64,000 nucleotides of DNA, taken from NCBI GenBank assembly GCA_004321805.1, contig SGZV01000004.1:1-64000 (forward strand). Reading direction: 5' to 3'. Made by a program: the position numbers and the translations under genes. Of the stretch, positions 24,501 through 45,211 are shown one piece after another (the first letter of the stretch is position 1; every line of letters starts with the position of its first letter). This stretch comes from an alpha proteobacterium HIMB59 (lineage in GTDB: Bacteria; Pseudomonadota; Alphaproteobacteria; HIMB59). The notes under the pieces are model-generated. The model was not told the DNA's origin, searched no databases, and was given only the letters and a program-made list of their open reading frames with translations.

Positions 24501-24559
24501 TGAAAACAGCCCCTTGCCACCTTCCTCCTCGACAAAGTCTCAACCCAAGCGGCTAGGGG
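24501..24559 (-). promoter_or_regulatory. Leader hairpin that may sequester the RBS of the alpha-hydroxy acid oxidase gene
   Basis: Minus strand CCCCTAGCC (24559-24551) pairs with GGCAAGGGG (24518-24510) with one mismatch; AAGGGG is the SD-like sequence before the ATG at 24500. Confidence 0.5.
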
Positions 24560-24633
24560 AAAGACATACTATTTTAATTTGAGATCATATGAAATAGATT
24601 TTTAATAAATTAAAAGCCTATAAAATAAAATGT

Positions 24634-25386
24634 ATGTTTTTCAATGAATATTCTCTATTCATTTTAACATATATTTTCATTGTCTATCTCTTTTGTGGCA
24701 TCATTAAAGGTACTATAGGGTTTGGTATGCCAACTGTTTCAATATCTCTGTTGGTCTTCTTTATAGATATCAAAATAATAATAGCCTTAATCCTTATCCC
24801 GACAATTGTTGTTAATATTTATCAATTAAGCAGAGGGGGCAATCTTATAATAATTTTAAAGGAAACAAAATTTTTTTTACTTTTCTCAACAATGTTTATT
24901 TTTCCTGGGACATATTTATTAAACATTATTAATTCTCAATATATAATTTTATTTATTGCGTTTGTTTTATTTATAAATTCACTATTATTTTTAACGAACA
25001 GAACATACATTTTACCTAAGTATAAATCTCCATTTACACAAAGCATAATAGGAGCAATTAATGGTGTTATTATCGGCATGACTAGTATATACACCATGCC
25101 TTTAATATTTTTATTACAATCATTTAAATACAACAAAAATACAACTGTTCAATTTTTAGGGATTGCATTTTTTTTATATCCAATAGCGCAAATGGTTTCT
25201 TTTGCTAATTTTAGTTTGATCTCTCTAGATATTATTAAAACTTCTTTAATACTATTAATACCGATCTTTTTTGGTCTATTTATTGGTCAAAAAATAAGAA
25301 GAAGAATTTCTGAAACATTATTTCAGAAGTTCTTTTATTGCATGTTGCTTGTGATGAGCTTCATTATTATTATCTCATTGATTTAA
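24634..25386 (+). CDS. TSUP family (TauE/SafE) transporter
   Basis: GIIKGTIGFGMPTVS, NGVIIGMTSIYTMP repeat signature; hydrophobic throughout. Confidence 0.88.
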   Translation: MFFNEYSLFILTYIFIVYLFCGIIKGTIGFGMPTVSISLLVFFIDIKIIIALILIPTIVVNIYQLSRGGNLIIILKETKFFLLFSTMFIFPGTYLLNIINSQYIILFIAFVLFINSLLFLTNRTYILPKYKSPFTQSIIGAINGVIIGMTSIYTMPLIFLLQSFKYNKNTTVQFLGIAFFLYPIAQMVSFANFSLISLDIIKTSLILLIPIFFGLFIGQKIRRRISETLFQKFFYCMLLVMSFIIIISLI

Positions 25387-42871: not shown

Positions 42872-43730
42872 TCTTAAAATTTTCTCTAATTGTTTGATAT
42901 TTATTGTATTTATGATTTAGCAAAAAAAACTCAGGTATAGAAGTAAGTGTTACAAGTAATTTTTCAAATTTAGTGACATATACTCTTTCAGAGCTATATT
43001 TGTATCCTTTTTTCTTTATTTTTTGTCCTATGGCTCTATAAATTTTTGCTGCGAAAAAAATCGCTAATCTAGTTTTTACAGGAATGTATTTCATTCCAGC
43101 AAAACCGTTTTTATAATAAGTCTCAGATAATTCGATTATTTTTCTTGTTGCTTCTTCAATATGAAAAAGTTTTTTACCAGATAAATTATATCTTAACTCT
43201 TCAATTTCAATATTTTCTATCCAATCTTGAGGTAAATAAATTCTGTTCATTAAAGCATCGTCATATATGTCTCTTGCTATATTGGTAAGTTGCATAGCGA
43301 TACCGAGATCTATAGCATGTTTATTAGCTTTATTATCATTTACCATAATTATAGGACTCATCATCAAACCAACTGTACCTGCAACTTGATATGAGTATTC
43401 TATCAATTCTTTTTCATTTTTAATTCGCACTTTTTTTTGATCTTTAATTAATCCATTAATTAAGTCACCTAATACTTCTATTGATATATTATTAGATCGA
43501 AAAAAAATATTTATAGGGTGGTTTAAATTATCATTAATTTTTTTAAATTCTTCCGATAGCCATTTTGTTTGATCATCATCATTTTCATCTGCGAGATCAT
43601 CAAAAAAACGACATATACTGTATAACTCTGAAGCTATCTTTTTATTTCTTTTAGGCAGAAAAAAACTTGCCCAATAAAAACTTTTTCCATGTTTTTTTAT
43701 AGAATTTGGATCGTTTAAATATTGTATCAC
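42858..43730 (-). CDS. crtB: Phytoene synthase
   Basis: YSICRFFDDLAD, LTNIARDIYDDA. Confidence 0.97.
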   Translation of the reverse strand: MIQYLNDPNSIKKHGKSFYWASFFLPKRNKKIASELYSICRFFDDLADENDDDQTKWLSEEFKKINDNLNHPINIFFRSNNISIEVLGDLINGLIKDQKKVRIKNEKELIEYSYQVAGTVGLMMSPIIMVNDNKANKHAIDLGIAMQLTNIARDIYDDALMNRIYLPQDWIENIEIEELRYNLSGKKLFHIEEATRKIIELSETYYKNGFAGMKYIPVKTRLAIFFAAKIYRAIGQKIKKKGYKYSSERVYVTKFEKLLVTLTSIPEFFLLNHKYNKYQTIRENFKNENL

Positions 43731-45211
43731 AAGATATTAAAATCTTTTTTAATTAATTTCTCTACTACTTTTGCAGAACATAGCACTCCTGGAATTCCAG
43801 CTCCAGGGTGTGATCCAGCAGTCGAGAAATATAAATTTGAAATTTTCTTATCTTTATTATGATATCTAAACCATGCTGATTGAGAAAAGATTGGAGCTAT
43901 AGAAAATCCAGCACCATACATTGATCTGTAATCATTTTTAAAATCTTCAGGGGTCATCCAAAAATCAGCTTCAATATTCTCTTTTAATGAGGGCATAATA
44001 GTTTCATCTAATGAACTTACTATTCTATCTCTTAAAATTGACCCCTCTTTATCCCAATTTATATTACCCTGAAGATTGGGAACAGGACATAAGACATAAA
44101 AACTATCTTTACCAGAGGGGGCAAATGTTTGATCAGTTGCAGTTGGCCTATGAAGATAGAGAGAAAAATCTTCAGTAAGAATTTTGTGATCAAAAATATC
44201 TTTTAACAATTCTTTGTATCTATTAGCCATCCAAATAGTGTGATGAGCAACTGAATGATATTGTTTTTTACTTCCAAAAAATAAAACGAATAGTCCCATG
44301 GAATATTGAACACTTTTTTCTAATTTTGGTAAAACATATTTACGATGTTTCGGTTCTAGCATTTCTTTGTAGACTGTAGGAGGATCAGCATTGCATATTA
44401 CTACATCTGCTTGAATTATCTCTCCATTTATAAGCTTAACACCAGTAACTTTTCTGTTATTAACTATAATTTTTTCTACATCAGTATTTTTTTGAATTTT
44501 AATATTATTTCTCATCATAAGTTTTTCTAATTCGTAAACAATTTTTCCTGTACCACCCATGCAAAAATATACACCCCACTTTCTCTCTAAATAGTGAATA
44601 AGGGCATATATTGAGGTAGTTGTGAAAGGGTTGCCACCAACTAGAAGTGGATGAATAGAAAAAGCCTTTCTCATAAATTCATTTTTTAATTTGCTGTTGA
44701 CTAATTGACTTACAGTTAAATAACTTTTTAATTTTAAAAGAGAAGGAACTTGTTTTGCCATTTCCCAGAAAGAAGAAAATGGCTTGTCAGATAGCTGTTC
44801 AAATCCAATTTTGAAAATTTCTTTTGAGGTATTTAATAAGTTTTCATAGCCTTTGACATCATTTTCATCAAATTTCCTAATTTCTTTATTTGTATCTTCA
44901 ATCGAGGGCCTATAGTCAAAAGTTTTACCATTATGAAAATAAAATCTATACCAAGGATCTAATGGCACAAAATTTAAATAATCTTCTAGTTTTTCATTAT
45001 AAATTTCAAATAGCTCTTCAAACAGAAATGGAGCAGTAATAACTGTGGGGCCGGCATCGTGTCGGTACCCGTCTCTTTGGAAGACCCTGGCTCTGCCACC
45101 CAACATATCTAACCTTTCGATTAAAGTTACATCAAATCCTAGCTTATTACTCCTAAGCGCAGCAGCTAAGCCACCAAATCCCCCACCTATAACTAATACT
45201 TTTTTCTTCAA
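43727..45211 (-). CDS. crtI: Phytoene desaturase
   Basis: VIGGGFGGLAAALR; C-terminal STAGSHPGAGIPGVLCSAKV. Confidence 0.98.
   Translation of the reverse strand: MKKKVLVIGGGFGGLAAALRSNKLGFDVTLIERLDMLGGRARVFQRDGYRHDAGPTVITAPFLFEELFEIYNEKLEDYLNFVPLDPWYRFYFHNGKTFDYRPSIEDTNKEIRKFDENDVKGYENLLNTSKEIFKIGFEQLSDKPFSSFWEMAKQVPSLLKLKSYLTVSQLVNSKLKNEFMRKAFSIHPLLVGGNPFTTTSIYALIHYLERKWGVYFCMGGTGKIVYELEKLMMRNNIKIQKNTDVEKIIVNNRKVTGVKLINGEIIQADVVICNADPPTVYKEMLEPKHRKYVLPKLEKSVQYSMGLFVLFFGSKKQYHSVAHHTIWMANRYKELLKDIFDHKILTEDFSLYLHRPTATDQTFAPSGKDSFYVLCPVPNLQGNINWDKEGSILRDRIVSSLDETIMPSLKENIEADFWMTPEDFKNDYRSMYGAGFSIAPIFSQSAWFRYHNKDKKISNLYFSTAGSHPGAGIPGVLCSAKVVEKLIKKDFNIL

Follow-up and report, generated by a model that had tools for sequence, protein, structure and literature searches.

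A putative small hairpin RNA displaying a Shine-Dalgarno sequence in its loop, conserved with or without a neighbouring oxidase gene in a marine alphaproteobacterial genus

Structured RNAs that present a ribosome-binding site have been described in alphaproteobacteria, where the odc1 (uORF-25-1) motif is a leader, mostly of ornithine decarboxylase, with a pseudoknot, UUG starts and a conserved 11-aa peptide (PMC8632094). In SAR11 bacteria, surveys of GC-rich intergenic regions covered Ca. P. ubique and HIMB5, and one Ca. P. ubique candidate was taken, on account of its variable neighbours, to be an RNA transcribed separately (PMC2704228, PMC6429828). HIMB59 corresponds to SAR11 subclade V and to AEGEAN-169 (PMC10308909), and a literature search found no paper joining HIMB59 with noncoding RNA. 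Here we consider a 52-nt hairpin element found within a 64-kb stretch of DNA that was analysed as a whole (the window), directly upstream of an oxidase gene. On balance, we regard it as probable that the element is a stand-alone gene, driven by its own promoter, for a small structured RNA of ~52 nt with a ribosome-docking loop, and that a minority of genomes also use it as the 5′ leader of the oxidase.

The initial annotation of the window had proposed a minus-strand stem in which CCCCU-A-GCC (24551-24559) pairs with GGC-A-AGGGG (24510-24518) around a single A·A mismatch, an AAGGGG Shine-Dalgarno (SD)-like site for the oxidase, and a stronger SD-like site in the loop; all three are present (Table 1). 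The stem is prolonged by an inner helix, GCCGCUU/AGGUGGC. The AAGGGG site ends 9 nt ahead of the oxidase ATG (24500) and is held in the stem, with a predicted unpaired probability of 0.00-0.04 across its paired part. The loop site, GAGGAGGAAG, lies immediately 5′ of an out-of-frame GTG (24520), and its duplex with the anti-SD is predicted at -11.6 kcal/mol, against -8.4 kcal/mol for the best of the 69 ORF starts in the window. The 16S 3′ end, seen in three relatives, reads ...GGATCACCTCC, with the anti-SD intact, and AGGAGGA occupies the loop of every copy of the element without variation.

Table 1. Positions of the hairpin element, its parts and the neighbouring features in the window.
Feature	Positions	Strand	Remarks
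Conserved 52-nt hairpin element	24509..24560	minus	Sequence UCCCCUAGCCGCUUGGGUUGAGACUUUGUCGAGGAGGAAGGUGGCAAGGGGC; CM/BLAST matches in 42/52 genus genomes
Outer helix, 5′ arm CCCCU	24555..24559	minus	Pairs with AGGGG at 24510-24514
Outer helix, 3′ arm AGGGG	24510..24514	minus	With 24515 forms AAGGGG, the SD-like site of the oxidase
Inner helix, 5′ arm GCCGCUU	24547..24553	minus	Pairs with AGGUGGC at 24516-24522; C-G to U-A compensatory change in G015
Inner helix, 3′ arm AGGUGGC	24516..24522	minus	GUG inside
Apical 3-bp hairpin GAC-UUU-GUC	24531..24539	minus	G-C to A-U compensatory change in G015; loop length variable
AGGAGG in internal loop, invariant	24524..24529	minus	Perfect complement of 16S anti-SD CCUCCU
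-10-like box TAGTAT (TATTAT in most relatives)	24566..24571	minus	6 nt before first C of stem; near-invariant in oxidase-free relatives
-35-like box TTTCAT	24589..24594	minus	17 nt before -10-like box; co-conserved with hairpin
Mini-ORF GUG GCA AGG GGC ... UAG (MARGCFQCLIR), 11 codons	24485..24520	minus	Overlaps oxidase ATG
FMN-dependent alpha-hydroxy-acid oxidase, 358 aa	23424..24500	minus	Pfam FMN_dh, E 1e-114

The 52-nt element has a predicted folding energy of -22.3 kcal/mol (z -2.3; 4 of 200 shuffles as good), which is more than chance, and the cores of its relatives reach z values of -1.9 to -2.9 against their shuffles. The folding check originally suggested, on a 131-nt fragment, gave a structure no better than shuffles (z -0.45), which is the one result that would suit a chance inverted repeat. 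Such a reading is close to untenable given the conservation, the covariation described below and a GC content of 62% against a mean of 31% for the window. Equal GC occurs elsewhere in the window only at 45040-45104, inside a minus-strand ORF (43727-45211). Among 31 oxidase-free species, the 51-nt core has accumulated 2 changes where ~81 were expected from the four-fold sites of metB (1.58 changes per site on the metB tree of these species), which refutes a chance repeat. By this measure, purifying selection on the element is very strong in oxidase-free carriers. The initial annotation had made its proposal depend on the stem being conserved in relatives, and the hairpin proved near-invariant across the genus.

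Within each of two subtypes the hairpin shows 0-1 changes, a promoter-like block ahead of it, TTTCAT-N17-TATTAT, hardly varies, and two positions separating this block from the stem are highly variable. In the 31 species, the 120 bp upstream of the hairpin evolve at 0.30 changes per site, 5 times slower than four-fold sites. Conservation of the element ends at GGGGC; the 50 nt beyond it change at 0.56-0.76 per site, where four-fold sites of the two subtypes give 0.73 and 0.39. Since the block and the hairpin are near-invariant and the sequence drifts past GGGGC, the boundaries appear to coincide with those of a promoter followed by a short RNA. A sigma-70 consensus scan did not pick up the TTTCAT -35-like box, which is far from consensus, and the block also serves a divergent gene (Cys/Met or TauE), so it may be conserved for reasons other than the element RNA. 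The 120 bp at 24561-24680 of the window hold a divergent promoter and a possible regulator site, ATCTGTTTCATAT, that the element shares with the Cys/Met-metabolism genes. An intrinsic terminator after the hairpin was not found in the scan of the window, and the AT-rich hairpins downstream of the element vary among relatives.

Comparison of the eight distinct sequences supports a fold at the level of RNA, with 98.3% of paired cells standard. Both-sided changes occur at three pairs (U-A to C-G, C-G to U-A and G-C to A-U), against 0-1 in slid controls. Each of the three traces to the G015 lineage, the most distant copy, and that alignment had been fitted to the model, which leaves the covariation real but thin. 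Covariation in relatives had been named as a check in the initial annotation, and these three compensatory changes do preserve the fold in G015. Across the aligned copies the fold is kept by compensatory changes and AGGAGGA is always displayed in the loop. G-U pairs fill 21 of 119 cells on the sense strand, where the opposite strand would have A·C, which favours the sense strand as the RNA strand; it also folds better than its complement. An opposite-strand sRNA with a CU-rich loop was considered and rejected, as its fold is worse and every G-U pair is broken. The same observations bear on the idea that the element is regulatory DNA, either an inverted repeat bound by a protein or the divergent promoter of Cys/Met-metabolism genes. 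Slow evolution of the 120 bp that separate the element from the divergent gene, and a position beside the Cys/Met gene that is fixed in clade 1, are what such DNA would show, but the one-strand G-U pairs, the changes in loop length, the compensatory changes and the invariant SD suit RNA and not duplex DNA, and in G015 the element lies by the oxidase with the metB ortholog on another contig. We consider this idea quite improbable.

Behind the loop SD, every copy has AGGAGG, 2-3 nt and then (G/A)UG GCN AGG GGN, giving the first four codons MARG. In G015 the GUG has become AUG and the pairing partner has changed too, so the start codon is retained. It might be argued from this conserved start region, and from the few 3′-arm changes being synonymous or start-codon-keeping, that the element is a short translated ORF whose function lies in its peptide or in the act of translation. 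Past MARG, however, the mini-ORF is unconserved: the peptide, 4-39 codons long with the oxidase fusion described below left aside, diverges completely and its sequence drifts. The sites that vary are also those left unpaired, and RNA structure accounts for them; the 5′ arm, which is outside the ORF, is conserved equally. A coding function is accordingly very improbable.

The element was found once per genome in 42 of the 52 genomes of the genus by BLAST and a covariance model. Matches that carry names come from marine single-cell genomes and MAGs labelled Alphaproteobacteria, Proteobacteria or Pelagibacteraceae, and the carrier genus is probably the HIMB59/AEGEAN-169 clade. The covariance model gave no significant match in 110 genomes of the sister family (28 of them also searched with model R2) and none outside the genus in a class sample of 385 genomes (R1); model R2 gave no credible match in a phylum sample of 399 genomes, and the search of viral contigs found none. 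A weak match in G648 (E 0.005 per genome, 399 genomes) falls in an apparent PLP-enzyme coding sequence and was judged to be chance. At the fully read loci the element is flanked on one side by a divergent gene for a Cys/Met PLP enzyme and on the other by a convergent TPR gene, the position beside the former being fixed in clade 1, and a TauE/SafE gene intervenes between the Cys/Met gene and the element in the window and the B types. Two oxidase-free loci (L038, L094) have a degenerate tRNA-Leu-like stretch between the element and the TPR gene, in which ARAGORN finds no tRNA in the case of L038. In oxidase-free genomes (L036/L037/L040 and others), read-through would cross the TPR gene antisense and then a same-strand DUF4864 gene, an excludon-like layout.

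The oxidase, whose closest solved structures are lactate/glycolate oxidases, has an ortholog in only 6 of the 52 genus genomes. It directly follows the element in only four of the 42 carriers (the window genome, G009, G037 and G015), and the other 38 have no ortholog and at most a paralog of 32-37%; several of these genomes are incomplete, but the loci that were read directly past the element contain no oxidase. G013 and G024 have the oxidase and lack the element, which model R2 did not find in either. Seen across the genus, promoter-like block and hairpin are co-conserved, one per genome and at a fixed spot, with or without the oxidase, and the distributions show the element to be independent of that gene. 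In an EamA tree, carriers occur in both deep clades, each of which contains the element-oxidase arrangement, and oxidase-free carriers (type C, type A and G029) are scattered, which suggests that the oxidase was lost repeatedly and the element retained. As the element directly precedes the oxidase in at least one genome of each deep clade, an ancestral role as oxidase leader is possible.

The initial annotation had read the hairpin as a translational switch of the oxidase. What stands of this is a conserved RNA that hides the oxidase SD and exposes a stronger upstream one; what does not is its specificity to the oxidase, given the 38 carriers without an ortholog. That ribosomes loading at the loop may affect the oxidase start is supported as a possibility: the mini-ORF overlaps that start in the window, meets it as ATGA in G015, stops 6 nt before the ATG in G037 and is fused in frame in G009. 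This arrangement, together with the buried oxidase SD, supports translational coupling via the mini-ORF in oxidase-bearing genomes. Coupling cannot explain the persistence of the element elsewhere. The G015 oxidase is split across two overlapping frames (L075: 161-604 and 543-1229), being either a pseudogene or an assembly error. The element-free oxidase of G013 has an AT-rich hairpin, CCUCAU...AUGAGG (L141:8115-8190, minus strand), and a GAGGAAG-GUG mini-ORF of 11 codons that stops 3 nt before an apparent UUG oxidase start; possibly the same coupling logic is built there from unrelated sequence.

The stronger proposal is that the element is at heart a cis-acting translational leader or riboswitch of the oxidase, whose stem hides the SD until the loop SD and mini-ORF, or a ligand, open it, and that oxidase-free copies are relics. 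Its attraction lies in placement: the window, two B-type genomes and the distant G015 have the element immediately before the oxidase, and this arrangement occurs in both deep clades of the tree. The oxidase SD is buried, and in each of the four genomes the mini-ORF either ends at or close to the oxidase start or is in frame with it. Relics, however, would not stay frozen to the extent seen in the 31 oxidase-free species, the oxidase is present without the element in two genomes, and few carriers have the gene at all. The suggestion of a riboswitch for the FMN-dependent enzyme found no support: no Rfam class matched and nothing points to FMN, lactate or glycolate as a ligand. We therefore regard the leader proposal as unlikely.

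In the stand-alone RNA gene that we favour, transcription would start at the stem or just ahead of it, and the RNA would form an interrupted 12-bp hairpin whose loop offers a perfect anti-SD complement 2-3 nt before the stem-held (G/A)UG. A 30S subunit could dock on the loop, and initiation would open the stem. In oxidase-bearing genomes, the window included, the transcript would continue into the oxidase, and ribosomes that enter at the loop would release the stem-buried AAGGGG, with coupling via the MARG mini-ORF. In the majority of genomes, selection would keep the ribosome-docking hairpin alone, presumably for action in trans or through ribosome binding. Counting against this account, G013 and G024 live without the element. 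A more radical version, which we rate as rather unlikely, is a free-standing 52-nt RNA whose sole job is to carry a perfect SD in a hairpin loop that binds the 16S anti-SD or the 30S subunit in trans, tuning or parking the ribosomes of an abundant marine clade, and from which a neighbouring gene borrowed its translation start.

A family of RNA that stays frozen in dozens of species within a streamlined marine clade must presumably have an important job, because such genomes shed most DNA that is not essential, and here the hairpin was kept even where the neighbouring gene was lost. The element would also exemplify the coupling of a gene to a resident RNA gene, or its uncoupling from one, and it would offer a well-bounded, synthesizable target for asking whether a free SD-loop hairpin acts on ribosomes.

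The element appears to be an uncatalogued RNA family. Searching the whole window against Rfam 15 at the gathering threshold gave no match, riboswitches included, and at a permissive threshold nothing credible, the best sub-threshold match scoring 17 bits against 38.9. Known classes of small RNA were also considered: no tRNA or tmRNA is present in the window, and a reduced 4.5S/SRP RNA was set aside as a separate SRP RNA is present on contig C26. A CsrA-sponge RNA was rejected, CsrA (PF02599) being undetected in 12 genomes by a search whose control finds it in 3 of 14 known genomes. Sponges of the RsmZ/CsrB type carry GGA repeats in their loops, as does the element, but the element is one hairpin only. 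The SAR11 structured RNA candidates resemble it as GC-rich islands in AT-rich, streamlined marine genomes; they are reported from Pelagibacter (Ca. P. ubique, HIMB5) and not from the HIMB59 clade, and those whose descriptions were examined, a three-stem junction and others lying by rhtB, pntA and rnhB, do not match the element in context (PMC2704228, PMC6429828). The nearest described architecture is that of odc1, which likewise has its ribosome-binding site in the shoulder of P1 and closely paired starts (PMC8632094), whereas the element uses GUG or AUG starts, encodes a peptide unconserved past MARG, usually has no downstream gene and differs in sequence.
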